A stretch of DNA of 64,000 nt from Pseudomonadota bacterium (GCA_019351955.1 JABBOE010000002.1:1-64000), one strand, 5' to 3'. Counted from the first letter of the stretch, positions 19,803 to 37,932 are shown. A program made the numbers and translations. Notes: a model not told the origin generated them from the letters alone.

Positions 19803-20409
19803 CCCCGCCGTCTCGAAGGCCAGGTGTCGACGGCGTGACGGCCGCGTGGTGCGGAGCCTGGGCGGACAGCCAAGCCCACCGCGCGTGACGGGTGCCACGC
19901 TCCATCGACCGCTGTGTCCGCGGCGTGCCTGCGGGTCGTGGCCTGCAGACGCGATCGAGCTCGGACGCCTGGCTCTTGGGTTGGCAGGGCGTGAAGCGTT
20001 TGCATAGAAGTGCATCAATCGGGCCCAAACACCGTGCACCTCTTGGGTCAGGGGTGGAAGACATTGCGCGTCGTGCAGTAAGCCTCGCGGCAATGCTAGG
20101 GGGCGGCGCGGAACGTTGCAGCTTGAGCCGCAACGCGCGCGAGCCGAAAGGGCGTTGCGGACAGCGTCGCAGTCTCGACCGGCCGGGGTGGTACACCACC
20201 TCAAGACGAGGCCAATCGCCACCCAGTTGGCCGGCCGCCCTCTCGCGTGTGCAGCGGATTCCGGCAACAGTTGGTTTCACGGCCGCTTGTGCTTGTGAAA
20301 ATCTGGCCTTGAAAGACGACGGATGCCGAACTAGAGTGAGTCCATTGGCGCTGTTCACACCCTACAAAAAACGCTTCGGTGGATCGCACGGTGCCGGAGG
20401 AGACAGGTG
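19803..20409. other. intergenic region before the formate dehydrogenase operon
   Basis: About 607 bases between the MHS transporter and the formate dehydrogenase operon. Open frames on both strands have basic, low-complexity translations with no domain. A short GC stem CGCCGTC/GACGGCG (19806-19835) follows the transporter stop but lacks a U-run. The promoter of the operon must lie in this region; no clear consensus could be recognised. Confidence 0.4.
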
Positions 20410-20661
20410 ATGAGCGTTCTCGACGCGCCCATAGCAACAGGTGCGGCTGGCGTCAGCAGGCGCGCGGTCTTGGTTGGTCTGGGTGGCGGGTCCGTCGTGG
20501 CGGGTGGAGCGGTGTTGGATGCCAAAGGCATCGCATGGGTCGCTCAGACCAGAGCCCATGGCATAGCGCGACCTGGCCAGCCCAAGCCCTTGCAAGCCGA
20601 GGTGACGGGCTACCACCTCACCGACCATATTCGTCGTTACTACCGTACCGCCAGACTCTGA
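20410..20661 (+). CDS. small Tat-signal protein of formate dehydrogenase operon (FdhX-like)
   Basis: This 83-residue protein has a twin-arginine signal (SRRAVLVGLGGGSVVAGGAVL) followed by a short tail ending TDHIRRYYRTARL. It matches the small 'formate dehydrogenase region Tat target' family found just before Tat-exported formate dehydrogenases. Its role is unproven; it may assist export or assembly of the catalytic subunit. The ATG at 20410 has GGAGGAG eight bases upstream; a GTG directly before it is also in frame. It lies 154 bases before the catalytic subunit gene. Confidence 0.8.
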   Translation: MSVLDAPIATGAAGVSRRAVLVGLGGGSVVAGGAVLDAKGIAWVAQTRAHGIARPGQPKPLQAEVTGYHLTDHIRRYYRTARL

Positions 20662-20815: not shown

Positions 20816-23800
20816 ATGCTGCTCATGCGCAAATCACCGCCCGATGGTGCCCCAGTTGGATCTGCTGCAGACAATCCGTGGGTTGCCCAACTCAGGCAAG
20901 GTCTTGAGCATGCGCTGCCGACCGTGGACCGGCGGACGTTTCTGCGGCGCTCAGGCCTTGGCCTCGGGCTCGCCGCCGGCGCCGGGTTGATCGGTTCCCA
21001 ACTGCGTCTGGTGGAAAAGGCGGACGCCGCCGATGCGCCAGCCCCCGGATCTCCAGGAAGTGGGCGCATGGTGACGCGCCGGACCGTGTGCACGCACTGT
21101 TCGGTGGGCTGCGCAAGCGACGCGATGGTGGAGAACGGCGTGTGGGTGAGGCAAAACCCCGTCTTCGAATCACCCATCAACATGGGCGCGCATTGCGCCA
21201 AGGGCGCTGCACTGCGCGACCATGGCCGCGGTGACCACCGCTTGCGCTACCCGATGAAGCTCGTTGACGGCAAGTACCAGCGGATCTCCTGGGACAAGGC
21301 GCTGCAGGAAATCAGCGACAGGCTCCTGGAAATCCGCAAGGAAAGCGGCCCGGATGCGCTGTTCGTCGTCGGATCGTCCAAGCACAGCAACGAGCAGGCC
21401 TATCTGCTGCGCAAGTGGGTATCGTTTTGGGGCACCAACAACTGTGACCATCAGGCACGCATCTGCCATTCCACGACAGTAGCCGGAGTAGCCAACACGT
21501 GGGGCTACGGCGCGATGACCAACTCATACAACGACATGGCGAATTCGAAAGTGGCGCTGTACATCGGCTCGAATGCCGCTGAGGCCCACCCGGTATCCAT
21601 GCTGCACCTGCTTCACGCGAAGGAAAACGGCTGCAAGGTCATCGTGGTGGACCCGCGCTTCACGCGTACGGCGGCCAAGGCTGACAAGCACATTCGTATC
21701 CGCTCGGGGACCGACATTCCCTTCCTGTTTGGCGTGCTCTATCACATCTTCGATAACGGATGGGAGGACAAGGACTACATCGCCGCCCGCGTCTGGGGAA
21801 TGGACCAGGTCAAGCAGGACGTGATGGCAAAGTGGTCTCCCGACAAGGTGCAGGAGGTTTGTGGCGTGGACGGCAACACGACCCTGATGGTGGCGACGTG
21901 GCTGCACGAGAACCGCCCTGGTACCGTGGTGTGGTGCATGGGTCAGACGCAGCACACCATTGGCCACGCCATCGTGCGCGCATCGTGCATTCTCCAGTTG
22001 GCGCTTGGCAACGTTGGCAAATCCGGAGGTGGCACGAACATCTTCCGGGGTCACGACAATGTGCAGGGCGCGACCGATGTCGGTCCGAATCCCGACTCGC
22101 TTCCCGGCTACTACGGGGTGATCGATGGCGCGTGGAAGCATTTCGCCAGCGTGTGGGGTGTGGATTACGAATGGATCAAGGGGCGCTTTGCGCCGGGCAT
22201 GATGACGAAACCCGGCATGACGGTCTCACGCTGGATCGATGGCGTGCTGACCCCCAACGACATGATCGATCAGGGCCCGAATCTGCGCGCGCAGATTTTT
22301 TGGGGGCATGCCCCCAACTCGCAGACGCGTGGCCTGGATATGAAAAAGGCCATGGATAAACTGGATTTGCTCGTGGTGATCGACCCCTATCCGTCGGCCA
22401 CTGCAGCCATGGCGGCCATGCCAGGCGAGCCAAAGGACCTCAATCCCAAGCGCGCGGTCTATCTTCTGCCCGCGGCCACCCAGCTCGAGACATCGGGTTC
22501 AGTCACGGCCTCCAATCGCTCGCTGCAATGGCGTGAGCAAGTGGTCGAGCCCCTGTTTGAGTCGCGCACGGACCACATGATCATGGTGCAGCTGGCCGAC
22601 AAGCTCGGATTTGGCAAGGAATTGGTGAAGAACTACAAGATGGTGCCGGGAAAGGGTGGCATGCTGGAGCCCGAAACCGAATCAATCCTGCGGGAGATCA
22701 ATCGGGGCGTGTGGACCATTGGTTATACGGGTCAGAGCCCTGAGCGTCTAAAGGCGCATATGCGCAACATGCACGTGTTCGATGTCAAGACGCTGCGTGC
22801 GCGCGGCGGGATTGACGCTGAGACGGGATACAAGCTTGATGGCGAGTATTTCGGCCTGCCGTGGCCTTGCTACGGCACGCCGGAGTTGCGCCACCCAGGT
22901 ACTGGAAATCTGTACGACACCTCGCTCAACGTGATGCAGGGCGGGGGAAATTTCCGTGCCAATTTCGGCGTCGAGCGCGATGGACAGTCCCTGCTGGCGG
23001 CTGACGGATCGGCCTCTAAGGGCGCGGACATTCAAACCGGATATCCCGAGTTCGACGCCACCTTGCTGAAAAAGCTCGGTTGGTGGGACGAACTGACGGA
23101 TGCCGAGAAAAAGGCAGCAGATGGGAAGAACTGGAAAACCGACTCATCGGGCGGGATCATCCGCGTCGTCATGAAAAATCATGGCTGCTATCCATTCGGC
23201 AATGCCAGGGCTCGCGCGGTCGTGTGGAACTTCCCGGATCCCATCCCCCAGCACCGTGAGCCGCTGTATTCCGTGCGCCCAGACATGGTGGCGCAATATC
23301 CCACCTACGACGATAAGAAGGTGTTCTGGCGTTTGCCCACGCTGTTCAAGACAGTGCAGGAGCAGAACATCGACATTGTCAAGAAATTCCCCCTCATCCT
23401 CACCTCAGGACGGTTGGTCGAATACGAGGGTGGGGGCGATGAAACGCGGTCGAATCCCTGGCTCGCCGAGTTGCAGCAGTTTGCCTTCGTGCAGGTCAAT
23501 CCGGCCGTGGCCAACGACCGCAATATCCGGGAGGGCGATGACGTGTGGGTCAGCACGCCCACGGGAGCGCGCATCAAGGTGCGTGCGCGTATCACCGAAG
23601 CGGTGGATCGCAGCACAGTGTTCATTCCCTTTCACTTTGCCGGGCACTGGCAGGGAACGAACCTTCGCCAGTACTACCCCGAGGGCGCCGCGCCCATCGT
23701 GCTGGGCGAAGCGGTCAACACAGCCACGACCTATGGCTATGACGCGGTGACGATGATGCAGGAAAGCAAGACCACTGTGTGCCAACTCGAGCGCGCATAA
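20816..23800 (+). CDS. fdhA: formate dehydrogenase, major (catalytic) subunit, Tat-exported
   Basis: This 994-residue molybdopterin oxidoreductase oxidises formate to CO2 on the periplasmic side. A Tat motif RRTFLRR (39-45) and hydrophobic stretch end near residue 72. Cysteines 92, 95, 99 and 127 bind a [4Fe-4S] cluster. The metal ligand is Cys217 in QARICHST (TGC at 21464), where E. coli FdnG has selenocysteine. The His after it and the downstream GAMTN block are conserved. The C-terminal molybdopterin dinucleotide-binding domain is present. AAGGAG lies eight bases before the ATG. The iron-sulfur and cytochrome subunits follow. Mo versus W cannot be told from sequence. Confidence 0.96.
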   Translation: MLLMRKSPPDGAPVGSAADNPWVAQLRQGLEHALPTVDRRTFLRRSGLGLGLAAGAGLIGSQLRLVEKADAADAPAPGSPGSGRMVTRRTVCTHCSVGCASDAMVENGVWVRQNPVFESPINMGAHCAKGAALRDHGRGDHRLRYPMKLVDGKYQRISWDKALQEISDRLLEIRKESGPDALFVVGSSKHSNEQAYLLRKWVSFWGTNNCDHQARICHSTTVAGVANTWGYGAMTNSYNDMANSKVALYIGSNAAEAHPVSMLHLLHAKENGCKVIVVDPRFTRTAAKADKHIRIRSGTDIPFLFGVLYHIFDNGWEDKDYIAARVWGMDQVKQDVMAKWSPDKVQEVCGVDGNTTLMVATWLHENRPGTVVWCMGQTQHTIGHAIVRASCILQLALGNVGKSGGGTNIFRGHDNVQGATDVGPNPDSLPGYYGVIDGAWKHFASVWGVDYEWIKGRFAPGMMTKPGMTVSRWIDGVLTPNDMIDQGPNLRAQIFWGHAPNSQTRGLDMKKAMDKLDLLVVIDPYPSATAAMAAMPGEPKDLNPKRAVYLLPAATQLETSGSVTASNRSLQWREQVVEPLFESRTDHMIMVQLADKLGFGKELVKNYKMVPGKGGMLEPETESILREINRGVWTIGYTGQSPERLKAHMRNMHVFDVKTLRARGGIDAETGYKLDGEYFGLPWPCYGTPELRHPGTGNLYDTSLNVMQGGGNFRANFGVERDGQSLLAADGSASKGADIQTGYPEFDATLLKKLGWWDELTDAEKKAADGKNWKTDSSGGIIRVVMKNHGCYPFGNARARAVVWNFPDPIPQHREPLYSVRPDMVAQYPTYDDKKVFWRLPTLFKTVQEQNIDIVKKFPLILTSGRLVEYEGGGDETRSNPWLAELQQFAFVQVNPAVANDRNIREGDDVWVSTPTGARIKVRARITEAVDRSTVFIPFHFAGHWQGTNLRQYYPEGAAPIVLGEAVNTATTYGYDAVTMMQESKTTVCQLERA

Positions 23801-23819
23801 CCCAAGAGGGGCATTGACC

Positions 23820-24458
23820 ATGGCACGCATGAAATTCATCTGTGACGCGGAGCGCTGCATCAACTGCAATGGTTGCACCACGGCCTGCAAGAACGAGAAC
23901 GAGGTGCCTTGGGGCGTCAACCGACGGCGCGTCGTCACCATGAACGAGGGCGTGCCTGGCGAAAAGTCGATCTCGGTGGCCTGCATGCACTGCTCGGATG
24001 CACCATGCATGGCGGTTTGTCCGGTGAGCTGCTTTTACCGCACACCGGAGGGCGTCGTGCTCCACGACAAGGACATCTGCATCGGTTGCGGCTATTGCTC
24101 CTATGCGTGTCCGTTTGGCGCACCGCAATTCCCGGCCAACGGCGAATTCGGCCTGCGTGGCAAGATGGACAAATGCACCTTCTGTGCGGGTGGCCCTGCG
24201 CCGAACGGTTCGGAGGAGCAGTTCAGGGAATATGGGCGCGACCGCCTGGCCGAAGGCAAGCTGCCGATTTGTGCCGAAATGTGCTCGACCAAGGCATTGC
24301 TTGCGGGTGATGGCGAGGTGATCGCTGACATCATGCGCGAGCGTGTCTTGCATCGCGGCGGCGGAGCGGAACTGTGGGGTTGGGGCACGGCCTACGGGAC
24401 AGGCACGCAGGGTCAAGGCGGGGCAACGCCACAACCCCCTCAAGGGGCGCAATCGTGA
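23820..24458 (+). CDS. fdhB: formate dehydrogenase iron-sulfur (beta) subunit
   Basis: This 212-residue ferredoxin-like subunit relays electrons from the catalytic subunit to the cytochrome. Four cysteine groups are seen: CINCNGCTTAC near the start, CMHCSDAPCMAVC, CIGCGYCSYAC and a split CTFC...CAEMC set, as expected for four [4Fe-4S] clusters. It lacks the C-terminal membrane helix of E. coli FdnH and is closer in length to short FdhB proteins. The ATG at 23820 follows AAGAGGGG. It begins 19 bases after fdhA and its stop overlaps the next start (GTGA). Exported with the Tat-tagged partner, by analogy. Confidence 0.93.
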   Translation: MARMKFICDAERCINCNGCTTACKNENEVPWGVNRRRVVTMNEGVPGEKSISVACMHCSDAPCMAVCPVSCFYRTPEGVVLHDKDICIGCGYCSYACPFGAPQFPANGEFGLRGKMDKCTFCAGGPAPNGSEEQFREYGRDRLAEGKLPICAEMCSTKALLAGDGEVIADIMRERVLHRGGGAELWGWGTAYGTGTQGQGGATPQPPQGAQS

Positions 24459-24688
24459 AGATGATCCGGCCCTTGGTGGCTTGCGCTTTGCTTCTGGCCC
24501 TTCTCGATGCGTGCAGCCAGAAGCCGCAGACCTTGACGCAGACGGGCGCGCCGCAAGCTCAGGCGCCCTGGATGGGCGCCAAGCCCGCCTTCACCGAACA
24601 GGGTTGGAAGCCGGGCGACAAGGCCAGTTGGCAGCGCGAGATCGACCGCCGTGCGCAGGATCAGAATGAATACGTGCGCATGCGCTAA
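24455..24688 (+). CDS. small predicted lipoprotein in formate dehydrogenase operon
   Basis: This 77-residue protein is inserted between the iron-sulfur and cytochrome subunit genes. The N-terminus MKMIRPLVACALLLALLDAC is a signal peptide ending in a lipobox-like LDAC, so Cys20 may be lipidated. The mature part is short and charged at the end (WKPGDKASWQREIDRRAQDQ). The GTG start overlaps the stop of fdhB as GTGA, which implies translational coupling. An ATG two codons later is an alternative. I do not recognise a family. Position suggests a structural or assembly role at the membrane-bound enzyme. Confidence 0.7.
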   Translation: MKMIRPLVACALLLALLDACSQKPQTLTQTGAPQAQAPWMGAKPAFTEQGWKPGDKASWQREIDRRAQDQNEYVRMR

Positions 24689-24698
24689 ATGCGAGGGC

Positions 24699-25877
24699 AT
24701 GATGTCCCGATTACGGATGGCCTTGACGACGGGTTGCATGGCGCGGCCCTTGGTTTCGTTGCTGCTCGCCGCCGCTCTTGCACTGAGCGGGGGCCTCATT
24801 GCGAGCCCGGCCTGCGCCGCCGCAGCTTCATCAGCGGCGATGATGGAGCGCGCGGCGCCGCCCGGCGCGGCTCGCTTGCCGGGATACCTTCGGCAAAACA
24901 ACGCGGAGCGCGCGAAGGTGCAACCCGGCAACAATGCGCCCATGTGGCGCGACATCAAACAGCACACCGGCTTCAGCAGCCTGCCAGACCCAGAGGCCGG
25001 GGTGCTAATCCAGCCGCAGGCTGCCTATCCCGGTTCGGCGTTCACCTCGGCGGGCGAGGCCTGGCGGCAGACGCGCAACCGGCTACTCATCCCGGTAGGA
25101 GGTTGGCTGTTGATCATCGCCGCGGCGGGTATCGGTGTGTTCTACATGCTGCGCGGCAAGATACGGCTGGAGCACAAACCCACTGGGCGCAAGATCGAGC
25201 GTTTCACGCCGTTTGAGCGCTTCATGCACTGGGTGCTGGCGTTCTCGTTTATTGCGCTGGCCGTGTCGGGCATTGTCATCATGTTCGGCAAGTTTTTTCT
25301 GCTGCCCATCCTGGGTTCGGCATTCTTCGGCTGGCTGACTTACGCGCTCAAGACCATTCACAATTTTGTCGGGCCGTTATTCGGTTTGTCGTTGGTGATT
25401 GTGTTGCTGACGTTCGTGCGCGACAACCTGCCCAGCAAGAAAGATCTGGCCTGGCTCGCTAAGGGCGGCGGTTTGTTTGGCGGACGGGAAGCGCCGTCGG
25501 CGCGGTTCAACGCCGGAGAAAAAATCTGGTTCTGGGTCGGCGTGCTGTTCTTCGGTTTGCTGGCGGTGGCGTCAGGTCTGGTGCTCGACAAGCTGGTGCC
25601 CAATTTTTCCTACACCCGCGGCGCGATGCAGGTGGCGGAAATCGTCCATGTTTCGACCACCATTCTGCTGATGGCCATGGCGTTCGGGCACATCTACATC
25701 GGCAGCATCGGCATGGAGGGCGCACTCGACGGCATGCGCACCGGCTATGTGGATGAGAGCTGGGCGAAGCAGCACCATGCCTTGTGGCTGGATGACATCA
25801 ACGCCGGCAAGATTCCTGCGCAGCGAAGCGGCCAAAGCGTGCAAGCCCCGGTGCCGATGGTCAAGCCCAAAAGTTGA
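24699..25877 (+). CDS. fdhC: formate dehydrogenase cytochrome b (gamma) subunit
   Basis: This membrane subunit of about 392 residues passes electrons from the iron-sulfur subunit to quinone. An N-terminal signal-like helix (PLVSLLLAAALALSGGLIASPACA) is followed by about 100 periplasmic residues, a membrane helix (WLLIIAAAGIGVFYML) and a four-helix cytochrome b core. Candidate haem histidines lie in FMHWVLAFSF, TIHNFVGPLFG and AFGHIYIG. It is longer than E. coli FdnI because of the N-terminal extension, a layout common in this order. Starts at 24699 or 24702 follow GAGGG; an ATG at 24666 would overlap the lipoprotein gene. Confidence 0.92.
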   Translation: MMSRLRMALTTGCMARPLVSLLLAAALALSGGLIASPACAAAASSAAMMERAAPPGAARLPGYLRQNNAERAKVQPGNNAPMWRDIKQHTGFSSLPDPEAGVLIQPQAAYPGSAFTSAGEAWRQTRNRLLIPVGGWLLIIAAAGIGVFYMLRGKIRLEHKPTGRKIERFTPFERFMHWVLAFSFIALAVSGIVIMFGKFFLLPILGSAFFGWLTYALKTIHNFVGPLFGLSLVIVLLTFVRDNLPSKKDLAWLAKGGGLFGGREAPSARFNAGEKIWFWVGVLFFGLLAVASGLVLDKLVPNFSYTRGAMQVAEIVHVSTTILLMAMAFGHIYIGSIGMEGALDGMRTGYVDESWAKQHHALWLDDINAGKIPAQRSGQSVQAPVPMVKPKS

Positions 25878-25889
25878 GGAGTATTCTTG

Positions 25890-26225
25890 ATGAAGCGTGC
25901 CTATCGCATGGTGGCCGTCTGCCTGCTGGGACTGGGCAGGCCGGCTTGGTCTGAGCTGCCGCCGCCCAGCGCCGCGATGAAAGCCAAGGCGGATGAAGCG
26001 GCAGCCAAAGCGAAATGGAGCGACAACGTCGCGGCCTACCAACTCTGCGAGGCGCAGAACAAGGTGGCGAGCTTTTACTACGCGCAGGCCAAGGACCAGG
26101 ACAAGCCGACCTCGCCACCGGTGGACACCCCGCCATGCGTCGATCCCGGCCCGTTTACCGCGGTACCGCCAGACACCGCCGCGTCCGCCGATCGGTCTGC
26201 GGCATCCGCAAAAGAATCGAACTAA
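25890..26225 (+). CDS. small predicted secreted protein at end of formate dehydrogenase operon
   Basis: This 111-residue protein has an N-terminal hydrophobic stretch (MVAVCLLGLGRPAWS) that looks like a signal peptide. It is followed by an Ala/Lys-rich helix (AAMKAKADEAAAKAKWSDN), a segment with two cysteines (CEAQNK, PPCVDPG) and a proline-rich tail. GAGGAG lies eight bases before the ATG at 25890. It starts 12 bases after the cytochrome gene, so it is in the operon. I do not recognise a named domain. Similar small proteins accompany this enzyme in related bacteria from memory, but a function is not established. Confidence 0.72.
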   Translation: MKRAYRMVAVCLLGLGRPAWSELPPPSAAMKAKADEAAAKAKWSDNVAAYQLCEAQNKVASFYYAQAKDQDKPTSPPVDTPPCVDPGPFTAVPPDTAASADRSAASAKESN

Positions 26226-26421
26226 ACGGTTGAGCAGTGCCGGACGTCAGGACGTGGCGAAGACGGCCCCAAAGGTGGACAGCACATAGGGCTATGTCGC
26301 GCAGGGTCTGCGCCAGCACCGTCGTGCAGGCGTAGGCTCTGTCGCTTATAAAGAGAAAAGACGACGGCGCCATCATTCGCCGCCAAACCCCTGCCCGACC
26401 AACAAGTTCATTGCCTTGACC

Positions 26422-27315
26422 ATGCCCACGCCTTCGATCACCTCGCCTTCACCCGCTGTCGACCGGGCGAGGCTCTCCCAGGGTCCGCTGCTGAGTGACG
26501 CGCGCGTCGACCTCACGCGGGGAGTCGAAGTGCGCAACGAATACGGTGAATGCCAACAAGTGCATATCCCCGCTGAGCGCCCGCTGACGCTCTATTTGGA
26601 CAAAGTTGAGATCGTCACGCTCATGACAGTAGGAGCTGCCCCCGAGTTGTTGGCGCTCGGCTACCTGCGTAACCAGCGCCTCGTGCGATCCCTCGCCGAA
26701 ATTGCCTCTGTGCAAGTCGATTGGGACGTCGAGGCCTGCTCCATCACGAGCTGTGGTGGCATCGCCGGTCTGGAGCGGCGCAGTGCTGCCAAGCGGATTG
26801 TGACGACCGGCTGCGGCCAGGGCACCGTGTACGCCAGCCTGATGGACGAAGTGGACACTCTTGCGCTCGATCCGGACACACGCCTTCGGCAACGCGAGCT
26901 CTACAGCCTGCTGGAGGTCATGCGGATGCGCGACACTATCTACAAGACTGCTGGCTCCGTGCATGGCTGTGCCTTGTTTGCAGGTGGCGAGCTCTTGATG
27001 TTCACTGAGGACGTCGGCCGCCACAACGCGGTGGACGCCATCTCGGGCTGGATGTGGCTGCACGGTGTGGCGGGCGCCGGCAAGGTTTTTTACACCACCG
27101 GCCGCCTCACTTCGGAGATGGTCATCAAGTGCGCGCTCATGGGCGTGACGATCCTCGTGTCGCGTTCGGGTGTGACGCAAATGGGCTACGACATCGCCGC
27201 ACGTCTTGGACTCGCGTTGTTTGCGCGCTGCGCCAACCGGCACTTTCTGCAATACACCGCGCCGGATCGTTTCATCGCCGAGCCGATTCCAAGGCCGCAG
27301 CCTTTGCCCACATGA
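26422..27315 (+). CDS. fdhD: formate dehydrogenase accessory sulfurtransferase FdhD
   Basis: This 297-residue protein is of the FdhD family, which transfers sulfur from a cysteine desulfurase to the molybdenum cofactor before insertion into formate dehydrogenase. Seen features are SITSCGGIAG, the loop VTTGCGQGT, the GSVHGCALF strand, EDVGRHNAVDA and the C-terminal TTGRLTSEMVIK and SRSGVT blocks. In E. coli the loop is a CxxC; here Cys131 is kept but the second position is Gly134. I chose the ATG at 26422. Its stop overlaps the start of the DUF3305 gene by four bases. Cytoplasmic. Confidence 0.93.
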   Translation: MPTPSITSPSPAVDRARLSQGPLLSDARVDLTRGVEVRNEYGECQQVHIPAERPLTLYLDKVEIVTLMTVGAAPELLALGYLRNQRLVRSLAEIASVQVDWDVEACSITSCGGIAGLERRSAAKRIVTTGCGQGTVYASLMDEVDTLALDPDTRLRQRELYSLLEVMRMRDTIYKTAGSVHGCALFAGGELLMFTEDVGRHNAVDAISGWMWLHGVAGAGKVFYTTGRLTSEMVIKCALMGVTILVSRSGVTQMGYDIAARLGLALFARCANRHFLQYTAPDRFIAEPIPRPQPLPT

Positions 27316-27956
27316 ACGCCCCAACGCTCACCAGCACAACGGGTGAACTGCGTCTCGCAGTCATCCTGCAACGCGATCGCCTGCAAAGCGCATGGCAGCG
27401 CTGGAGCTGGAGCGTGCGTGATGTGTTGCAGGCCAATCACGGGGGCCCGATGCCTCGCTGCCTTGTGTGGAACACAGCCAGTTCACAATGGCTGTTTGGC
27501 AGCTACTGCCTTGAACTTCACCGTGACGAGGGTGAGGGCTACCACCTCAACCTTACCGCGCCCAGTCCATCGTGGTTCGTCTGGTGGACGGGGCCCGCCG
27601 ATCCCGATTGCGATGATCCACGCGTTCAATCCGGTGGATTGCCTGCGGTGCAGGCCATCACGCTGTCGTACAACGAGGCAGCCCGCTGGATGGACGCGGG
27701 CGAAACCGTGGAAGTCGTGCCGCTGCCTGGAGCGGTGGCGAACTGGCTGGCTGCGTTCGCCACCATGGCTTACAGGCCGGAGCCGCGAAGGCGTGTACGG
27801 CCGCAAAGCTTCCTTGCGCCACAGGAGCGCGACGCCACGATGGCGCGGGGAGCACCCGAGAATGGGCCTCAACCGGAGCCCAGGGCCGGCACTTCAGACG
27901 ATCGCGTAGGCGACATGGGCGGGATGGCTGCGGGGCGCAAAAGGATCCACATATGA
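27312..27956 (+). CDS. DUF3305 domain-containing protein
   Basis: This 214-residue soluble protein resembles DUF3305, a family of unknown function found beside formate dehydrogenase genes. The N-terminal part (LAVILQRDRLQSAWQRWSW, then a WLFGSYCLELHRDEGEGYHLNL strand pair) is compact. The C-terminal third is proline/arginine-rich and looks disordered apart from a PQSFLAP motif. The ATG overlaps the fdhD stop (ATGA), and its own stop overlaps the DUF3306 start, so all three are translationally coupled. No catalytic motif is evident. Confidence 0.78.
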   Translation: MNAPTLTSTTGELRLAVILQRDRLQSAWQRWSWSVRDVLQANHGGPMPRCLVWNTASSQWLFGSYCLELHRDEGEGYHLNLTAPSPSWFVWWTGPADPDCDDPRVQSGGLPAVQAITLSYNEAARWMDAGETVEVVPLPGAVANWLAAFATMAYRPEPRRRVRPQSFLAPQERDATMARGAPENGPQPEPRAGTSDDRVGDMGGMAAGRKRIHI

Positions 27957-28564
27957 AACTCCCAGACCGTGAGGGCGTTGGTCATGCAGCGGGCTTTCTC
28001 GCACGCTGGTCGCGCCGCAAACTGCAGGCGCAAACGCGGCGCATGGAGGATGGCGCGACTCGCGCAACCGGGGTCACGCCTGTTAATCCGTCGCCTCCGC
28101 GTGCGGTCCAAGCACAGGCTGTGGGCGAAGCCGCGGCGCGAGAAATGCCAACAATGGAAGAGCTGGAGTCGCTCGATCACAGTGCCGACCTGCGGCGTTT
28201 CATTGCGCGGGAGATTGACGAATCGGTGCGCTGCGCGGCCCTGCGCAAGATGTTTCAGGACCCGCGATTTAATGTGATGGATGGGCTCGACACCTATATT
28301 GGCGACTATAACGCCGCCAGCCCACTGCCTGCGAGCATGTTGGATCGTCTTCGCCACGCTGCATCCGAGGCCGTGGATCTCCATGCCGATGAGGAGCCGT
28401 CTGGGCAGGAAGCGTCGCACGCGGCTTGCGCGCATCATGGGAGTGTGACCACACAGGCGTCACCTGCGGACGATGGCGCCGCGCCTGGTGCAGGCCCTGC
28501 ACGCGCTGTGGAGCGGACGGTGTCGCAGCCACTGCTTGAGCATCCCGAGGTGCCGGACGCATGA
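27953..28564 (+). CDS. DUF3306 domain-containing protein
   Basis: This 203-residue protein resembles DUF3306. The N-terminal GFLARWSRRKLQAQ and the middle block MEELESLDHSADLRRFIAREIDESVRCAALRKMF, ending in DGLDTYIGDYN, are the family's typical features. The last 60 residues are acidic and His/Ala-rich and probably flexible. Function is unknown. It overlaps both neighbours by four bases and so is made together with the DUF3305 protein and the polyferredoxin. Cytoplasmic by lack of signal. Confidence 0.8.
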   Translation: MKLPDREGVGHAAGFLARWSRRKLQAQTRRMEDGATRATGVTPVNPSPPRAVQAQAVGEAAAREMPTMEELESLDHSADLRRFIAREIDESVRCAALRKMFQDPRFNVMDGLDTYIGDYNAASPLPASMLDRLRHAASEAVDLHADEEPSGQEASHAACAHHGSVTTQASPADDGAAPGAGPARAVERTVSQPLLEHPEVPDA

Positions 28565-30768
28565 AAACCCTGGTGTGTGATTGCAACCACAGCATGCCCC
28601 TGGACTTCGCTGCGCTGTCCAATGCCATCGGTGAACCCCTGACCCCGCACAGCCAGCTCTGTCGACGCGAAATCGCCCAGTTCCAGAGTGCTGCGCGTGG
28701 TGATGAGCCTCTACTTGTGGCCTGCACGCAGGAGGCACGGCTATTCACCGCAGTCGCCGCGCAGACCGACGGCGTTCCGCCGCCCGACGTGCGCCCCATG
28801 CGTTTCGTCAACATTCGCGAAACGGCCGGCTGGAGCCGACAGGCTCCAGCTGCCGGGCCGAAAATCGCGGCACTACTCGCTGCGGCCAGACTTGGCGAGC
28901 CCGAGCCAGTGCCCACGGTCAGTTACTCGAGCCAAGGCCACTGTCTCGTGATTGGCGACACCGAATCCCTCAGCCTTGCCGTGAGCTTGCTGTCCAACGC
29001 GTTTCGTCTCACGTTGCTGGAAACGGGACCTGCCAGCGGCAAGGGGCAATCGGGTGGCTTGCCGCTGGACCGCGAGCAGATTTTGCATGCAGGGCGCGTG
29101 CACGCTGTGCGGGGGTGGCTAGGCGCCTTCCAAGTCGAGTGGCAGAGTTCGAATCCCATTGATCTGGATATCTGCACGCGCTGCAGCGCGTGCGTCAAGG
29201 CCTGTCCGCAGGGGGCCATCGGGTGGGATTACCAGATTGATCTGACGCGTTGTACGGCTCAACGAGACTGCGTACGCGCCTGCGGCGCCATTGGCGCGAT
29301 CAATTTCGACCGACCGCCTCAGTCCCACATGGACACGTTCGACCTGGTGCTTGATCTTCAGCCCCAGCCTGCGATTGGTCTGCATCAAGTTCCACAAGGC
29401 TATTACGCGCCGGGTAGCGATCCACTGGAGCTGGCGCGCGCCGTGGGTGAGCTGCGCGACCGCGTCGGCACGTTCGAGAAGCCGCGCTTTGTCCACTATG
29501 ACCCCAAGCTCTGCGCCCACACGCGCAATGGGCTGCTGGGGTGTAATGCCTGCGTGGACGTCTGCTCAGCCGAGGCGATCTCCAGTCGCGCCCGCTTGCG
29601 CGCTGACCAGCCACAACGGCCGGTCAGCTCGGTCCAACCACCACGCGCGGAGACATCCCGCTTCCTCAACCAGATCGAGGTTGAGCCACATTTGTGCGTG
29701 GGCTGCGGGGCGTGCGCGACGGTGTGCCCGTCGGGCGCGCTCGCGTTTGCGTGGCCGCGCCCCGCCGACATGGGGGCGCGGCTCAAGGTTCTGCTCTCGA
29801 CGGGGCGGCGCGCCGGGTTCGAACGCCCGGCACTGCTGTTGCACAGTCAGGAGCTGGGTACGCAACTCCTGGGTGAGCTCGGTCGCCTGGCTGCAGGCAA
29901 TGGCGATGTGCGGGGCGTGCCTGCGCATGTCGTGCCCGTTGCGTTGTGGCATGTTGCCTCGGTTGGCCTGGATCTCTGGTTGGCGGCGATTGCCTGGGGG
30001 GCGGCTGAAATCCTCGTGCTTGCGAGCGGTGAGGAGGCGCCCGCCTATCTCGACACGCTGCGCAGCCAACTCGCCCTCGGCCAGACCCTTTTGCATGGCA
30101 TGGGCTACGCCGGAACGCGCCTAGCCTTGTTGCAGACACACGATCCCCTTGAGCTTGACGCGCAGTTAGGCGCCTCGCGCCCGCAAGGTCCGGTGCCCGA
30201 AGCCGTTGCCGGGTTTGCAGCCTTGGCGCAAAAGCGGGCGACACTGGAGCTGGCGCTCGACCACCTTTTGCGTCATGCCCCGCTGCAAGCCGTGGGGCGC
30301 GGTGAGCAACCGATTGTGCTGCCGCACGGAGCGTTTGCCCCGTTCGGGGCCGTTCGCGTCGATACCGCGCGCTGCACCCTTTGTTTGAGCTGCGTCGGTG
30401 CCTGCCCCGAAGGGGCCCTCCTTGATAATCCTCAGGCACCGCAGCTGCGTTTCGTCGAGAAGAATTGCGTGCAGTGCGGCCTGTGCGTCAAGACATGCCC
30501 CGAAGACGCCATCCGCCTTGAACCCCGCCTGCAGTGGGGGCCGCAGCGCAGCGAACCGCTCTCCTTGCATGCTGCCCAGCCCTGGCGGTGCATACGCTGT
30601 GGCGCTCCTTTCGGCACAGTGCCGGCAATCGAGCAGATGCTGGTCAAGCTCGCAGGCCATCCCGCGTTTTCCGGCGCGGCTGCCGAACGCCTGAAAATGT
30701 GCGGCGACTGCCGCGTGATCGACATGCACACCGCTGCCGACACCACCATCGACGACCATTCGCATTGA
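28561..30768 (+). CDS. polyferredoxin-type 4Fe-4S protein
   Basis: This 735-residue cytoplasmic protein carries many cysteine clusters. Seen groups are near residues 207-217 (CTRCSACVKAC), 231-244 (an irregular CTAQRDCVRAC), 318-336 (CAHT...CNACVDVC), 381-391 (CVGCGACATVC), 606-616 and 636-648 (CTLCLSCVGAC, CVQCGLCVKTC), and a final CIRC...CGDC pair. A Rossmann-like VIGDTESLSLAV lies near 125-140. Residues about 430-530 resemble the FlpD/MvhD-type subunit but lack its cysteines. It may transfer electrons or support enzyme maturation. It overlaps the DUF3306 gene and precedes the TorD-like gene. Confidence 0.85.
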   Translation: MKTLVCDCNHSMPLDFAALSNAIGEPLTPHSQLCRREIAQFQSAARGDEPLLVACTQEARLFTAVAAQTDGVPPPDVRPMRFVNIRETAGWSRQAPAAGPKIAALLAAARLGEPEPVPTVSYSSQGHCLVIGDTESLSLAVSLLSNAFRLTLLETGPASGKGQSGGLPLDREQILHAGRVHAVRGWLGAFQVEWQSSNPIDLDICTRCSACVKACPQGAIGWDYQIDLTRCTAQRDCVRACGAIGAINFDRPPQSHMDTFDLVLDLQPQPAIGLHQVPQGYYAPGSDPLELARAVGELRDRVGTFEKPRFVHYDPKLCAHTRNGLLGCNACVDVCSAEAISSRARLRADQPQRPVSSVQPPRAETSRFLNQIEVEPHLCVGCGACATVCPSGALAFAWPRPADMGARLKVLLSTGRRAGFERPALLLHSQELGTQLLGELGRLAAGNGDVRGVPAHVVPVALWHVASVGLDLWLAAIAWGAAEILVLASGEEAPAYLDTLRSQLALGQTLLHGMGYAGTRLALLQTHDPLELDAQLGASRPQGPVPEAVAGFAALAQKRATLELALDHLLRHAPLQAVGRGEQPIVLPHGAFAPFGAVRVDTARCTLCLSCVGACPEGALLDNPQAPQLRFVEKNCVQCGLCVKTCPEDAIRLEPRLQWGPQRSEPLSLHAAQPWRCIRCGAPFGTVPAIEQMLVKLAGHPAFSGAAAERLKMCGDCRVIDMHTAADTTIDDHSH

Positions 30769-30776
30769 GGTTGCCC

Positions 30777-31418
30777 ATGCCCTCCGCTCCCTCTGCGCTC
30801 ATGCCCGCGCCCGCTGATGCGGCTGGCGCCGAGGATGCGGATCGTGCCAGGGTGTGGAACGTGCTCGCACTCCTGTACATCGCGCCGCCCGATGACGTGC
30901 TGTTGCGCCATCTGGCCGGAGGGATGGACGTGCAGGGGCGCAGCGGCGAGCCCAGCGCGCTGCAGGCCGCTTGGGACGCGCTTGCCAACAAGGCGCGCCT
31001 TGTGAGTCAGGAGATGGCGCGTGAGGAATTTGAAACGCTTTTCGGTGGCATCGGCCGCCCGGCGGTTTACGTCTACGGTTCGTTTTACCTGGCTGGCGCC
31101 CTCCACGAAAAACCGCTTGCGCGCTTACGCAGCGACCTGCAGGCGCTCGGCCTCGCGCGGCGGCAGGACGTGGGTGAGAGCGAGGACCACTTCGCGATCC
31201 TCGCCGAGATCATGTGTTTTCTGAGCACGGCCAACATCCCGGGTCGTCAGGATCTCGCGCGCCAGCGTGAGCTGTTCAAAACGCACATCGAGCCCTGGGC
31301 CTTGCGCATGTGTGACGCCATCCTTGAGCACCCAGCGGCTGATTTTTACCGCAAGGTGGCCGAATTCACGCGTGCGTTCCTGGCCGTTGAGCAGGTTGGT
31401 TTCGATTTGCTGGACTGA
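30777..31418 (+). CDS. TorD/DmsD family molecular chaperone
   Basis: This 213-residue all-helical protein is of the TorD family, dedicated chaperones that bind signal peptides or folding intermediates of molybdoenzymes before Tat export. Seen features are NVLALLYIAPPDDVLLRHLAG near the start, EEFETLFGG, and PVYVYGSFYLAG-like and EDHFAILAEIMCFL segments, the latter a family hallmark. It begins eight bases after the polyferredoxin gene. The likely client is the Tat-tagged formate dehydrogenase upstream, an inference from position. I chose the ATG at 30777 because upstream sequence is the neighbouring gene. Confidence 0.88.
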   Translation: MPSAPSALMPAPADAAGAEDADRARVWNVLALLYIAPPDDVLLRHLAGGMDVQGRSGEPSALQAAWDALANKARLVSQEMAREEFETLFGGIGRPAVYVYGSFYLAGALHEKPLARLRSDLQALGLARRQDVGESEDHFAILAEIMCFLSTANIPGRQDLARQRELFKTHIEPWALRMCDAILEHPAADFYRKVAEFTRAFLAVEQVGFDLLD

Positions 31419-33101: not shown

Positions 33102-33989
33102 ATGCTTGCACGTAAATACCGCTACCTCCTGGCCTTGGCGCAAAGCCGTCACTTTGGACGCGCTGCCGCGAGTTGCCATGTCTCGCCGTCGACGCTTTCG
33201 GCGGCCGTTCGCGATCTGGAGAGCGAGTTGGGGGTAGCCATTGTTGAGCGTGGGCGCACGTTCTCGGGCTTCACGGCTGAAGGCCTGTCGGTGGTGGACT
33301 ATGCCCGTCGCATGAGCGCAGTGGAGGCGGATTTTCGGTTGCACCTGAGCAAGATGGGTGGCGGGCTGAGCGGGCGGCTTTCGCTTGGGGTGATTCCCAC
33401 CGCGCTGACCGTTGTTGCGGGGCTCTCGGTGGCCCTCGCGCGGCGGCATCCGCAGCTCCGCTTGGAGATCCTCTCGCTCAATACCGAGGAGATACTGCGT
33501 CGGGTACAGGCCTTTGAGCTGGACGGCGGGATTGTCTACAAGGAATCCAGCGACGTGGAGGGTCTGGATTTCATGCCCCTCTGGCAGGAGCGGCACGTGC
33601 TGATTGCAGGTCAGCGTATGGCAGCTTCGCTGCGCGAGACCATGAGCTGGAGCGAGGCTGGGCAGCTGCCGCTTTGTCTGCTGACGCCCGACATGCAAAA
33701 CCGCAAGACCATCGACCGTGTCTTCGACGGGCTGGGCGCGCGTCCGCAGCCCGGCCTGGAGACGAATTCCATCGTCAGCATGCTGGCGCACGTCGGAAGC
33801 GGGTCGTGGTGCGCCATCCTTCCGGGGAGTGTGCTGGACGTCGTGGGTACCCCCAAAGGTGTGAAAGTCGTGCGCCTGGTCGAGCCAACGGTGACGTGGG
33901 AGACCGGGTTGATCACCTTGGCGCGCGAACCTCGCCCAGTCGGCGTCGAGGCGCTGCTGTCCGCAGCCCGCAACGCTCGGGAACGCTGA
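33102..33989 (+). CDS. LysR family transcriptional regulator
   Basis: This 295-residue regulator has an N-terminal winged helix (YRYLLALAQSRHFGRAAASC, then HVSPSTLSAAVRDLESELG at 27-45). A periplasmic-binding-like effector domain from about residue 90 begins with GRLSLGVIPTAL. It sits between the divergent TDT gene and the oxalate/formate antiporter gene, so both are likely targets. The effector may be formate, oxalate or a related acid, by inference only. The ATG at 33102 starts the canonical domain. Tandem TTCCGA/TCGGAA elements begin about 20 bases after its stop. Confidence 0.92.
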   Translation: MLARKYRYLLALAQSRHFGRAAASCHVSPSTLSAAVRDLESELGVAIVERGRTFSGFTAEGLSVVDYARRMSAVEADFRLHLSKMGGGLSGRLSLGVIPTALTVVAGLSVALARRHPQLRLEILSLNTEEILRRVQAFELDGGIVYKESSDVEGLDFMPLWQERHVLIAGQRMAASLRETMSWSEAGQLPLCLLTPDMQNRKTIDRVFDGLGARPQPGLETNSIVSMLAHVGSGSWCAILPGSVLDVVGTPKGVKVVRLVEPTVTWETGLITLAREPRPVGVEALLSAARNARER

Positions 33990-34223: not shown

Positions 34224-35867
34224 ATGTCTGAATCCCTAGCAAGGCCTATGCCGGCGAGCGGGTTACTTGACCGCGAACGCACCGTTGCCGGTGCACGATT
34301 CAACCGTTGGCTGGTGCCGCCAGCGGCTCTTGCCATCCATTTGTGCATCGGCATGGCGTATGGCTTCTCCGTGTTTTGGCTTCCGATGACCAAACTGTTG
34401 TCAAACACGGACGAGGCGACGTGCAAGGCGCAAGGGCTGATGGCCGAGATGTTCAGTACGACTTGTAACTGGACCGTGCCTTCAGTGACGCACACGTTCG
34501 AGATGTTCATCGCCGTCCTCGGCATTGCTGCGGCGCTGTGGGGTGGCTGGCTGGAGCACGCCGGTCCCCGCAAGGCCGGTTTCATCGCCGCATTGTGTTG
34601 GGGCGGTGGCCTCGTCATTGGCGGCATTGGCGTGTCCACGCACCAGCTTTGGCTGCTGTGGCTGGGCTGCGGGATCATTGGCGGGGTTGGGCAGGGACTG
34701 GGCTACATCAGCCCGGTGTCGACGCTGATCAAGTGGTTCCCTGACCGTCGGGGCATGGCCACGGGCTTTGCCATCATGGGGTACGGAGGTGGTGCAATGA
34801 TCGGAGCGCCGATTGCTGTGGCGCTGATGAAACATTTCGGCGGCGGCGACAGCTCGCAGGGAGTGGCCATGACCCTGATCGTCATGGGCATTTTGTATTT
34901 CATCGTGATGTCGGCTGGTGCATTCGGCATTCGCATCCCGCCCAGCGGCTGGAAGCCAGCGGGCTGGGATGAGGCGTCAAGCGGCTCCAGAAAGGCGATG
35001 ATTACCCCCCATCACGTGCATTTGGATGTGGCCTGGAAGACACCCCAGTTCTGGTTGATCTGGGGTGTGCTGTGCCTGAACGTGACAGCCGGGATCGGGG
35101 TGATTTCCATGGCCAGTCCCATGTTGCAGGATGTGTTCGGTGGGCACCTGATCGGGCTGGATTCGCTCACGGCGCTGACCACGGCGCAAAAGGCGGCTGT
35201 TGCGGCGTCCGCGGCCGGCCTGGTGGGCTTGATCAGCCTGTTCAACAGTCTGGGACGGTTGTTTTGGGCCAGCATTTCCGACCATATCGGTCGCAAGATG
35301 ACGTACTCCGTGTTCTTTATCCTGGGCATGGCGCTATACATCAGCCTTCCCACGCTGGGCCATTTGGGCATGGCAGGTCTCTTCGTCATTGGCGTGTGCC
35401 TGATTTTGACGATGTACGGTGGAGGCTTCTCAACGGTGCCGGCTTATCTTGCTGACATTTTTGGCACCCAGATGGTCGGGGCGATTCACGGGCGGCTGCT
35501 GACGGCGTGGTCCGTGGCGGGCATCGCGGGACCCTTCCTGATTGCCGCCATCCGGCAGACGCAGATCAACGCCGGGGTGGCGCACAACCTCGTGTATGAC
35601 CGAACCCTGTATATCCTGGCGGGTTTGCTCCTCGCAGGGCTTGTCCTCAACCTCCTGGTGCGCCCGGTTGACGCCAAGCACAACATGACGGCCGAGCAAC
35701 TCGCGCGCGAAAGGGCACTTCAGCACGAGGATCGCACCGCGGGTGACCCCGCGCATGCAGCGCGCGGCCCGTTTGGGCTCTCCGGGGTTTTGGCCTGGGC
35801 CGCAATCGGCATCCCCTTCCTCATCGGTGTCTATATCGCGCTGCAGAAGGCCGCCGTCCTTTTTTGA
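34224..35867 (+). CDS. OFA family MFS transporter (oxalate/formate antiporter type)
   Basis: This 547-residue, roughly twelve-helix inner-membrane protein is of the oxalate:formate antiporter family. Seen features are IHLCIGMAYGFSVFWLPM in helix 1, GCGIIGGVGQGLGYISPVSTLIKWFPDRRGMATG around helices 4-5, and the SDHIGRKMTY loop. Between helices 1 and 2 a periplasmic loop holds two cysteines (TCKAQG...TTCNW). Formate, oxalate or similar acids are likely substrates given the flanking formate dehydrogenase genes. GAGGAGA precedes the ATG at 34224. The upstream region carries a strong palindrome and repeat array. Confidence 0.9.
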   Translation: MSESLARPMPASGLLDRERTVAGARFNRWLVPPAALAIHLCIGMAYGFSVFWLPMTKLLSNTDEATCKAQGLMAEMFSTTCNWTVPSVTHTFEMFIAVLGIAAALWGGWLEHAGPRKAGFIAALCWGGGLVIGGIGVSTHQLWLLWLGCGIIGGVGQGLGYISPVSTLIKWFPDRRGMATGFAIMGYGGGAMIGAPIAVALMKHFGGGDSSQGVAMTLIVMGILYFIVMSAGAFGIRIPPSGWKPAGWDEASSGSRKAMITPHHVHLDVAWKTPQFWLIWGVLCLNVTAGIGVISMASPMLQDVFGGHLIGLDSLTALTTAQKAAVAASAAGLVGLISLFNSLGRLFWASISDHIGRKMTYSVFFILGMALYISLPTLGHLGMAGLFVIGVCLILTMYGGGFSTVPAYLADIFGTQMVGAIHGRLLTAWSVAGIAGPFLIAAIRQTQINAGVAHNLVYDRTLYILAGLLLAGLVLNLLVRPVDAKHNMTAEQLARERALQHEDRTAGDPAHAARGPFGLSGVLAWAAIGIPFLIGVYIALQKAAVLF

Positions 35868-35918
35868 AGTAAGGTCTGAGAGTCGGTCTCGCATTCCCGG
35901 CTCCTCGTTCCATGCACA

Positions 35919-35946
35919 ACGAGGCCGGCATCGACGCCGGCCTCGT
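35919..35946. terminator. GC-rich hairpin between antiporter and NAD-formate dehydrogenase genes
   Basis: ACGAGGCCGGC (35919-35929) pairs exactly with GCCGGCCTCGT (35936-35946) around a six-base loop. The stem is strong, but no U-run follows, so it may be a weak or Rho-assisted terminator, an attenuator or an RNA-stability element. It overlaps an upstream in-frame ATG of the next gene, which argues for the downstream start. Confidence 0.5.
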
Positions 35947-35965
35947 CACTTCACAAGACTCCCCC

Positions 35966-37819
35966 ATGCCCAGCCCAGCGCCCACAAACACTCCTCGAGC
36001 GGTCGAGCCCGAGCAAAGCGCCGCGCGCGCGCAGCCCGTGCGTTTCATGCGCGTGACTCCGCGCGGTGGTCTCGTCAGCCCCGAGGCTAGGCAAGCAGTC
36101 AAGGCGGCCAGCGGCGACTTGGCGTCGCGTCCTGACTTGCTGATCGAGCACCTGCACCGCCTAGTGGACGCCGAGGGTGGGTTGCGTCCGTCGCGTCTTG
36201 CAGCCTTGGCCGAGACGTTGCGCCTGTCCACCAGCGAGGTGTATGAGGTGGCAAGTTTCTACGACCACTTGCGCCTGTTGCGCGAGGATGAGCCCGCGCC
36301 GAGAGCGACCGTACGCGTGTGTACCAATCTGAGTTGCGCGCTCGCCGGCGCGGATGCCTTGCTCCACGCGCTGCAACACCGCTGCGGTGTCGATGTCGCA
36401 GTTGAAGGCGCGTCGTGCATGGGCCTGTGCACACAGGCGCCAGGTGTGCTTGTGGGGCGCCACGCGCTCGGCAACGCCACGCCCGAGGCGGTGATTGCCG
36501 CCCTGCCCGAGGCGTCTACTCCCGCCAGGCCGCCGGCAGCCGCCGTGTGCTACGCGGAGTATCGTGCCGGAGGCGGTTACCGCCTTCTCGAGGAGTGTCA
36601 TGCCGCAGTGCGCGCGCCGGAAGAAATCATGGCGCAACTCGAAGCCGCGGACTTGCGCGGGCTGGGCGGCGCCGGTTTTCCCTCCGTGCGCAAATGGCGC
36701 ACGCTCGCCCAGCAACCGAGCCCGCGTCTGATCGTGCTCAATGCAGACGAAGGCGAAGTCGGCACTTGCAAGGACGGCCACATTCTCCGCACAGACCCTC
36801 ACCGCGTGCTCGAAGGCATGCTCGTTGCAGCGTGGGCGGTGGCTGCCGGCAGGATTTGGATTTACCTGCGCGACGAATACGCTGCCGAGAACACTTTGCT
36901 GCACCGCGAACTGCAGGCCCTTCATGAAGCGGGTCTCGTGCGCTATGGCGGCGTGGACGTCGGTGGCCCTGAGGACGATGAACCGGGAGCGGACGCCGAG
37001 GTGCGTGCGCGACCGCCGCGTGTGGCCCTGCGCCGAGGTGCGGGCGCCTATATCTGCGGCGAGGAGTCCGCGTTGATTGAGTCCCTTGAAGGCAAACGTG
37101 GCATGCCACGCCTGAAGCCGCCCATCGTGGCCATCAGTGGGCTCTTTGGCAAGCCGACGTTGGAGCATAACGTGGAGACCCTCTGGTGGGTTCGCGATAT
37201 CGTGCAAGGTGGCGGTCAGGCGTGGGCCGCATTGGGCCGGCGCGGACGCAAAGGCGTGCGACGCTTCACCGTCTCCGGGCGCGTGACCAGACCTGGCGTC
37301 TACCTGGCGCCGGCCGGCATCACCGCGCGCGAACTGATCGAGGAGCATGCGGGGGGAATGGCTCCGGGCTGGTCGCTCTATGGCGTGTTGCCCGGTGGGG
37401 CGTCAGGGGGCATCCTCAACGCGAATCAGGCTGATCTGCCGCTGGACTTCGGCACCCTTGACGCCGAAGGTTGCTTCATCGGGTCGATGGCGGTCGTCGT
37501 TCTGGGCCAGCGGGAGGGCCATGTCGACATGGCGCGCGAGGCGGCTACCAACTTGATGCAGTTTTTTGCCCACGAGAGCTGTGGCCAGTGCACCCCGTGC
37601 CGCGAAGGCACCCACCAGATGCTTGCGGCGATGGCTTCACCAGCGTGGGATGCAACGCACATCGCTGGGTTGACCCGGATCATGCGCGATGCCTCGATAT
37701 GCGGACTCGGTCAAGCCGCGCCGAATCCAACCGACAGCGTATTGCGGCACTTTCCACAGGAGGTCGGTTTGCAAGGCACGCTTGCAGGAGGCGCGGACAA
37801 GAGCGAGCCGCGCGGATGA
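35966..37819 (+). CDS. NAD-dependent formate dehydrogenase, fused gamma-beta subunit
   Basis: This protein of about 617 residues fuses a NuoE-like and a NuoF-like module. The first has [2Fe-2S] cysteines near 118-156 (CTNLSC, SCMGLC). The second has the FMN/NADH loop GLGGAGFPSVRKW near 232, YICGEESALIESLEGKRG, and the [4Fe-4S] motif SCGQCTPCREGT with a distal CGLGQ. It carries electrons from the alpha subunit to NAD+. In the fds operons I know these are two genes (fdsG, fdsB). The start is uncertain; ATG 35966 avoids the hairpin, and ATG 35912 is in frame. Cytoplasmic. Confidence 0.9.
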   Translation: MPSPAPTNTPRAVEPEQSAARAQPVRFMRVTPRGGLVSPEARQAVKAASGDLASRPDLLIEHLHRLVDAEGGLRPSRLAALAETLRLSTSEVYEVASFYDHLRLLREDEPAPRATVRVCTNLSCALAGADALLHALQHRCGVDVAVEGASCMGLCTQAPGVLVGRHALGNATPEAVIAALPEASTPARPPAAAVCYAEYRAGGGYRLLEECHAAVRAPEEIMAQLEAADLRGLGGAGFPSVRKWRTLAQQPSPRLIVLNADEGEVGTCKDGHILRTDPHRVLEGMLVAAWAVAAGRIWIYLRDEYAAENTLLHRELQALHEAGLVRYGGVDVGGPEDDEPGADAEVRARPPRVALRRGAGAYICGEESALIESLEGKRGMPRLKPPIVAISGLFGKPTLEHNVETLWWVRDIVQGGGQAWAALGRRGRKGVRRFTVSGRVTRPGVYLAPAGITARELIEEHAGGMAPGWSLYGVLPGGASGGILNANQADLPLDFGTLDAEGCFIGSMAVVVLGQREGHVDMAREAATNLMQFFAHESCGQCTPCREGTHQMLAAMASPAWDATHIAGLTRIMRDASICGLGQAAPNPTDSVLRHFPQEVGLQGTLAGGADKSEPRG

Positions 37820-37929: not shown

Positions 37930-37932
37930 ACC

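Follow-up and report, generated by a model that had tools for sequence, protein, structure and literature searches.

Among the closest described relatives of the system studied here are chaperones and iron-sulfur proteins that attend molybdoenzymes. Campylobacter jejuni FdhABC requires the TorD homologue FdhM (PMC10609526), and the TorD-like protein of Shewanella carries the name FdhT (PMC5826389). In both organisms, the gene for the TorD-family chaperone accompanies fdhABC and fdhD. NapF, which is cytoplasmic and carries several clusters, binds NapA and restores its cluster before export (PMC10609526). The DUF3305 and DUF3306 families were noted beside chaperone-formate dehydrogenase operons in a 2015 study of the NarJ subfamily (PMC4464133), the sole relevant paper mentioning either family in the open literature searched. 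We analysed a 64,000-nucleotide stretch of Pseudomonadota bacterium GCA_019351955.1 (JABBOE010000002.1:1-64000; hereafter the window, whose positions are used throughout), in which fdhD is followed by genes for a DUF3305 protein, a DUF3306 protein, a polyferredoxin and a TorD/NarJ-family chaperone. An earlier note, made from the sequence, had seen in these four genes what looked like an undescribed maturation or electron-transfer module for formate dehydrogenase. In view of the 2015 neighbourhood report, FdhT and FdhM, "undescribed" was too strong. Our analysis indicated that the genes are probably a maturation cassette that works in the cytoplasm and is dedicated to FDH3, the formate dehydrogenase that is exported by twin-arginine translocation (Tat) and linked to cytochrome b. 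The operon upstream of the cassette, fdhX-fdhABC, encodes a Tat-type FDH3, and the genes of the locus are as follows.

20407..20661, + strand: fdhX-like small Tat protein ("formate dehydrogenase region TAT target"); TIGR02811 at E 1.3e-9 and 38 bits, under the cut-off of 48; SRRAVLVGLGGG motif
20816..23800, + strand: fdhA, FDH3-type catalytic subunit; Tat signal DRRTFL, active-site cysteine in RICHSTT, Pfam Molybdopterin family
23814..24458, + strand: fdhB, FDH3 beta iron-sulfur subunit; NF038355 (FDH3_beta equivalog) at 329.6 bits, cut-off 240
24651..25877, + strand: fdhC, cytochrome b gamma subunit; TIGR01583 at 174 bits, cut-off 116; the true start may lie further in
26416..27315, + strand: fdhD, single-cysteine subfamily by motif comparison; FdhD PF02634 at 2e-69, over the gathering score
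27312..27956, + strand: DUF3305 protein; PF11749 at 6.4e-40, over the gathering score; ATGA overlap with fdhD
27953..28564, + strand: DUF3306 protein; PF11748 at 6.6e-29, over the gathering score; ATGA overlap with the DUF3305 gene
28561..30768, + strand: polyferredoxin (modelled as degenerate HdrA, FlpD-like domain and C-terminal ferredoxin; Pfam Fer4 models over the gathering score); ATGA overlap with the DUF3306 gene
30777..31418, + strand: TorD/NarJ-family chaperone (FdhT/FdhM-like); Nitrate_red_del PF02613 at 1.1e-21, 77.8 bits versus a gathering score of 22.2; 8-base gap before the gene

The tight run of four genes behind fdhD reported in the earlier note was confirmed (ATGA overlaps at three junctions and a gap of 8 bases at the fourth), as was its assignment of the fourth gene to the molybdoenzyme chaperones, given the PF02613 score. 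The arrangement cannot be ascribed to chance, since it is conserved across the phylum.

To establish the distribution of the cassette, 378 Pseudomonadota genomes, taken in one draw, were searched for DUF3306, FDH3_beta and DUF3305, and matches over the cut-off were counted. All three occurred in the same 56 genomes (33 genera, 14 families), and none of them occurred elsewhere in the draw. Kinship among the genomes inflates the simple probability of such co-occurrence, and more weight therefore falls on contrasts within genera; in all six genera of mixed presence (g12, g16, g63, g101, g105 and g150), genomes held either all three or none. The earlier note had proposed counting co-occurrence with Tat-type formate dehydrogenase; the count matched in 56 of 56 genomes, and the pattern it named as contrary, a cassette widespread without the enzyme, was not found (among the 378, no genome had DUF3305 or DUF3306 without FDH3). 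Neither DUF3305 nor DUF3306 was seen in 14 control genomes, including that of Escherichia coli, which possesses three other formate dehydrogenases (PMC10609526); thus, the cassette tracks the FDH3 type rather than formate dehydrogenase generally. The polyferredoxin gene was located in all 56 FDH3 genomes when divergent and distant copies were included. It was transcribed divergently in most alphaproteobacteria and lay 32 kb away in one genome (G016). In the 20-kb neighbourhoods of the sampled genomes, the cassette adjoined fdhABC in nearly all cases. A scan of genome contigs with FdhB, which returned Pseudomonadota loci only, yielded 80 further FDH3 loci, nearly all from Burkholderiales, and cassette genes were present in nearly all of those with a sufficiently long flank.

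These data bear on the possibility that FdhD and the TorD-like chaperone alone mature FDH3, the other three proteins having a separate minor function inherited along with the operon. Accounts of the related C. jejuni enzyme do name FdhD and FdhM only, with no DUF3305, DUF3306 or polyferredoxin (PMC10609526). Nevertheless, DUF3305 and DUF3306 never occurred without FDH3 in the 378 genomes, the six within-genus contrasts included, and the cysteines of the polyferredoxin are invariant in 47 homologues, which makes such hitch-hiking very unlikely. The window genome holds a single DUF3305 copy. In four genomes (G330, G290, G315 and G240), two FDH3 beta genes were accompanied by a single DUF3305/DUF3306 pair; the pair therefore appears to be a trans-acting accessory and not a subunit.

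The predicted cellular location of the proteins argued for a role in assembly. A Tat motif was present in FdhA of 48/48 full-length homologues, and no export signal was found on the window cassette proteins; they most likely meet FdhAB, therefore, before export. The link to a Tat-type formate dehydrogenase drawn in the earlier note was strongly supported by the co-occurrence count, and of the two roles it had offered, cytoplasmic maturation was favoured over respiratory electron transfer.

The polyferredoxin comprises approximately 735 amino acids and 32 cysteines, 31 of which are the invariant ones, with about seven predicted clusters retained. The AlphaFold2 model (predicted local distance difference test score, pLDDT, 87; predicted template modelling score 0.86) was built from an input alignment of 47 sequences, nearly all from Burkholderiales, and the following parts could be assigned.

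28561..28920, + strand: residues 1-120, HdrA-like N-terminal domain (CxC, LC, AC, NIRE..W); alignment to HdrA 8rvu
28921..29469, + strand: residues 121-303, half-domain resembling HdrA and thioredoxin reductase, its GxGxxG degraded and a Fer4 inserted; VIA Z 12.9 to HdrA 8rwn_A, motif table
29512..29727, + strand: residues 318-389, two-cluster ferredoxin like the HdrA C-terminus; Pfam, cysteine conservation
29815..30216, + strand: residues 419-552, putative FlpD/MvhD-like domain without any cysteine; VIA Z 12.0, root-mean-square deviation 3.1, 128 aligned (of 137) to 7bkb_F, weak sequence support
30373..30711, + strand: residues 605-717, HycF/NapF-like two-cluster ferredoxin plus a CxxC...CxxC site (8-cysteine ferredoxin); TIGR00402 napF at 2.4e-15, HycF 7z0s_F Z 10.1

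A profile of polyferredoxin homologues matched HdrA in the PDB at E 9.5e-19, colinear over 51-208 to 75-266 of 8rvu_a and including the motif F-x-NIRE..W, and residues 1-413 of the model matched HdrA in fold (VIA Z 12.7-12.9; Foldseek 4e-15). The N-terminal cysteines are arranged CxC...C...C, a pattern that resembles that of the HdrA N-terminus. The flavin adenine dinucleotide (FAD) motif GxGxxG was degenerate in 55/55 aligned homologues (e.g., VIGDTESLSLA) and the second half of the HdrA FAD domain was lost; judging from this motif loss, the protein probably carries no flavin. No cysteine lies between residues 390 and 604, so that the [2Fe-2S] ligands of FlpD are missing, and PF02662 was not reported by Pfam for the polyferredoxin. 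The assignment of this segment to FlpD is based mainly on the modelled fold and on colinearity with HdrA-FlpD fusion proteins from other genomes, which show the same domain order (316-456 to about 427-560), more than on sequence. The model and the structure comparison bore out both the Rossmann-like segment and the cysteine-free FlpD-like region that the earlier note had recognized. Taken together, they point to a reduced HdrA-FlpD scaffold in which the predicted clusters are kept. HdrA-FlpD fusion frames of approximately 740-790 amino acids were also seen in several Pseudomonadota genomes (L248-L263) and are a possible source of the polyferredoxin. In 16 gammaproteobacterial homologues, the HdrA-like N-terminal domain is missing, together with one ferredoxin.

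The methanogen HdrA and FlpD proteins (7bkb, 8rvu, 5odc) thus share with the polyferredoxin a colinear sequence match in the N-terminal half, a fold Z of approximately 12 to both, and the CxC/C/C and NIRE..W motifs. In contrast, the polyferredoxin lacks GxGxxG, the second half of the FAD domain and the FlpD cysteines, and has an extra C-terminal ferredoxin. Its partner enzyme is periplasmic, and HdrB and HdrC are not annotated beside it (none in the four annotated plasmid loci, where no search aimed at them was made). The heterodisulfide reductase complex 7bkb pairs formate dehydrogenase with HdrA and FlpD, and the polyferredoxin shows both folds, HdrA first, with up to seven predicted clusters. 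This raises the question of whether it is instead a cytoplasmic electron carrier, a remnant of methanogen FdhAB-FlpD-HdrA linking formate oxidation to a partner in the cytoplasm, with the two DUF proteins as its structural partners. We consider this unlikely, as FdhA is exported, the FAD glycine motif and every FlpD cysteine are gone, the gammaproteobacterial proteins have been reduced further, and one DUF3305/DUF3306 pair accompanies two enzymes in four genomes. The C-terminus found its best NCBIfam match in NapF, although under the cut-off (56.7 bits versus 102.2), and the NapD/NapF system offers a further likeness in that a Tat-signal chaperone and a cytoplasmic multi-[4Fe-4S] protein act on a molybdoenzyme before export (PMC10609526). 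NapF, however, is small and has four clusters, whereas the polyferredoxin is much longer, apparently HdrA-derived, and accompanied by FdhD, DUF3305 and DUF3306. Similarly, the ferredoxin-like E. coli proteins HydN/YsaA are needed for full formate dehydrogenase activity and remain outside the purified complex (PMC6004506), but they are small, HycB-like, serve the cytoplasmic FDH-H and have no HdrA or FlpD ancestry.

FdhD of the window carries the motif TTGCGQGT, with the cysteine codon at 26812-26814 and glycine in place of the second cysteine at 26821-26823. The CxxC of sulfur transfer (C121/C124 in E. coli) is thus reduced to CGQG. A single-cysteine FdhD ([ST]GCxxG[ST] instead of CxxC) was present in 26/26 FDH3 genomes examined versus 1/26 FDH3-negative genomes with a readable FdhD motif, and by this motif FdhD of FDH3 systems is a subfamily of its own. 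FdhD proteins with one or no cysteine were known to exist (PMC10609526). The FDH3-negative genome G205 (L222) has a single-cysteine FdhD and no cassette, possibly a leftover of a lost system. FdhE, the factor on which periplasmic formate dehydrogenases usually depend, was present in 51 genomes of the set, only two of which had FDH3 (2/56 FDH3 genomes; 7.6 expected, P 0.009), and FdhE_N gave no match in the window genome (G000). The rarity of FdhE is consistent with the cassette taking its place. The FDH3 locus thus resembles the FdhD/FdhE route in having a linked FdhD and differs from it in the single cysteine, the near absence of FdhE and the addition of the four cassette proteins. A second, soluble formate dehydrogenase is encoded at 35912-40764, approximately 4.5 kb past the cassette (a fused NuoE/NuoF-like protein of 635 amino acids and an Fds-type alpha subunit of 943 amino acids). 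The single-cysteine FdhD is the sole FdhD of the window genome, and therefore must also serve the soluble enzyme, if that enzyme needs FdhD.

The DUF3305 protein was predicted to have a globular core (residues 12-153, mostly pLDDT >90 by AlphaFold2). Against the PDB, no Foldseek hit had an E below 0.88 and no VIA-align match exceeded Z 2.7, and no sequence relatives of DUF3305 or DUF3306 were found there; this gives no fold-based function for DUF3305 and does not show that the predicted fold is new. The conserved columns of DUF3306 comprise an N-terminal FLxRWSRRK motif and a DGLDxYxxDY motif. The NCBIfam model NF011058 is curated as MobA with a DUF3305 domain, which ties DUF3305 to bis(molybdopterin guanine dinucleotide) (bis-MGD). 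The window protein matches only 216-360 of its 382 positions, in the DUF3305 part, and Pfam gives DUF3305 alone, with no MobA nucleotidyltransferase domain. Fusions with MobA were sought in the sampled clusters, and none of the six long DUF3305 frames examined had a MobA domain. The label "putative membrane proteins", which the 2015 paper gave to both families, was not supported either, as the median maximal hydropathy was 1.05 for DUF3305 and 0.53 for DUF3306 (55-57 homologues).

Annotated alphaproteobacterial FDH3 clusters additionally contained Mrp/NBP35, ABC transporter and molybdopterin genes, and after one Variovorax cluster come MoeA and a molybdopterin biosynthesis gene. Together with the MobA-DUF3305 model, these neighbours indicate cofactor assembly. 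In three alphaproteobacterial clusters (L168, L169 and L170), there are genes for DUF6352, DUF6505, DUF6494 and a biotin/lipoate-ligase-like protein, in some cases together with Mrp/NBP35; the first four probably belong to the system as well. Members of Shewanella SO_4502-4510 are expressed coordinately, with the polyferredoxin, FdhT and fdhAB among the co-regulated genes (PMC5826389, PMC2535785); SO_4504-SO_4506 would correspond to the cassette by gene order only. The Shewanella cluster is controlled by the iron-responsive RNA RyhB (PMC5826389), and the iron-sulfur-rich polyferredoxin adjoins metal transporters in alphaproteobacteria. Both observations would suit a regulator or sensor of iron-sulfur or molybdenum/tungsten supply that controls FDH3 production but does not act on the enzyme itself. 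This reading is very improbable, given that Pfam and NCBIfam reveal a DNA-binding or signalling domain in no cassette member and that a TorD-family chaperone and FdhD share the translational unit. The text of the Shewanella 121-condition fitness paper does not mention formate, and growth of Cupriavidus on formate was unaffected by any fdh, fdo or fdw knockout, which is uninformative on the cassette. Elsewhere in the window, a 112-amino-acid protein with a possible signal peptide and no family match in Pfam or NCBIfam is encoded between fdhC and fdhD (25887-26225). A major facilitator superfamily transporter of the oxalate/formate antiporter and lactate transporter group (34224-35867) lies between the two formate dehydrogenases and is preceded by a gene for a CynR-like LysR regulator (33102-33989).

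The overall maturation role is well supported, and for the individual proteins we infer the following steps. The TorD-like protein would guard the Tat signal and apo-FdhA while FdhAB is still cytoplasmic. The polyferredoxin would dock on the FdhA precursor and, by analogy with NapF and NapA, provide or keep reduced the [4Fe-4S] clusters and supply electrons for assembly. The single-cysteine FdhD would deliver sulfurated bis-MGD, and DUF3305 and its flexible linker, DUF3306, may act in the place of FdhE as an adaptor between FdhD or the cofactor and FdhA. A more specific scheme, possible if doubtful, is that the single-cysteine FdhD and DUF3305 hold bis-MGD while the flavin-less HdrA-FlpD relic, as an electron and cluster relay, drives its sulfuration or reductive insertion, replacing the route of CxxC-FdhD and FdhE. 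Several points weigh against a maturation role or parts of it. Co-occurrence, counted within Pseudomonadota, cannot by itself separate maturation from another FDH3-dependent role, and the FdhE deficit may partly mirror different lineages carrying the two enzyme types. Some plasmid FDH3 operons lack the full linked cassette, with TorD only in Azospirillum and none of it in Loktanella and Variovorax RA8 (plasmid sequence only), a situation compatible with action in trans. Comparison of the FlpD segment with real FlpD by hhalign gave a probability of 1%. No genetic or biochemical work on DUF3305, DUF3306 or the polyferredoxin turned up in the open literature searched, and the step given to each cassette protein rests on inference.

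Four points did not appear in the open literature searched (subscription papers lay outside the search): the 56/56 rule, descent of the polyferredoxin from HdrA-FlpD, the tie between FDH3 and single-cysteine FdhD, and the near absence of FdhE from FDH3 genomes. The proposed view of the polyferredoxin as degenerate HdrA with an FlpD-like domain and ferredoxin, its single-cysteine FdhD partner and the near absence of FdhE are new in this analysis. Two families of unknown function thereby become a maturation system, open to direct testing, of a respiratory formate dehydrogenase that is widespread. The analysis also defines a class of formate dehydrogenases whose maturation apparently dispenses with FdhE and uses a one-cysteine FdhD. 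The HdrA-FlpD scaffold, known from flavin-based electron bifurcation, seems to have been reused beside a molybdoenzyme chaperone without the flavin motif or the FlpD cysteines. The cassette also suggests which genes need to be co-expressed when FDH3 enzymes are produced heterologously for CO2/formate conversion.

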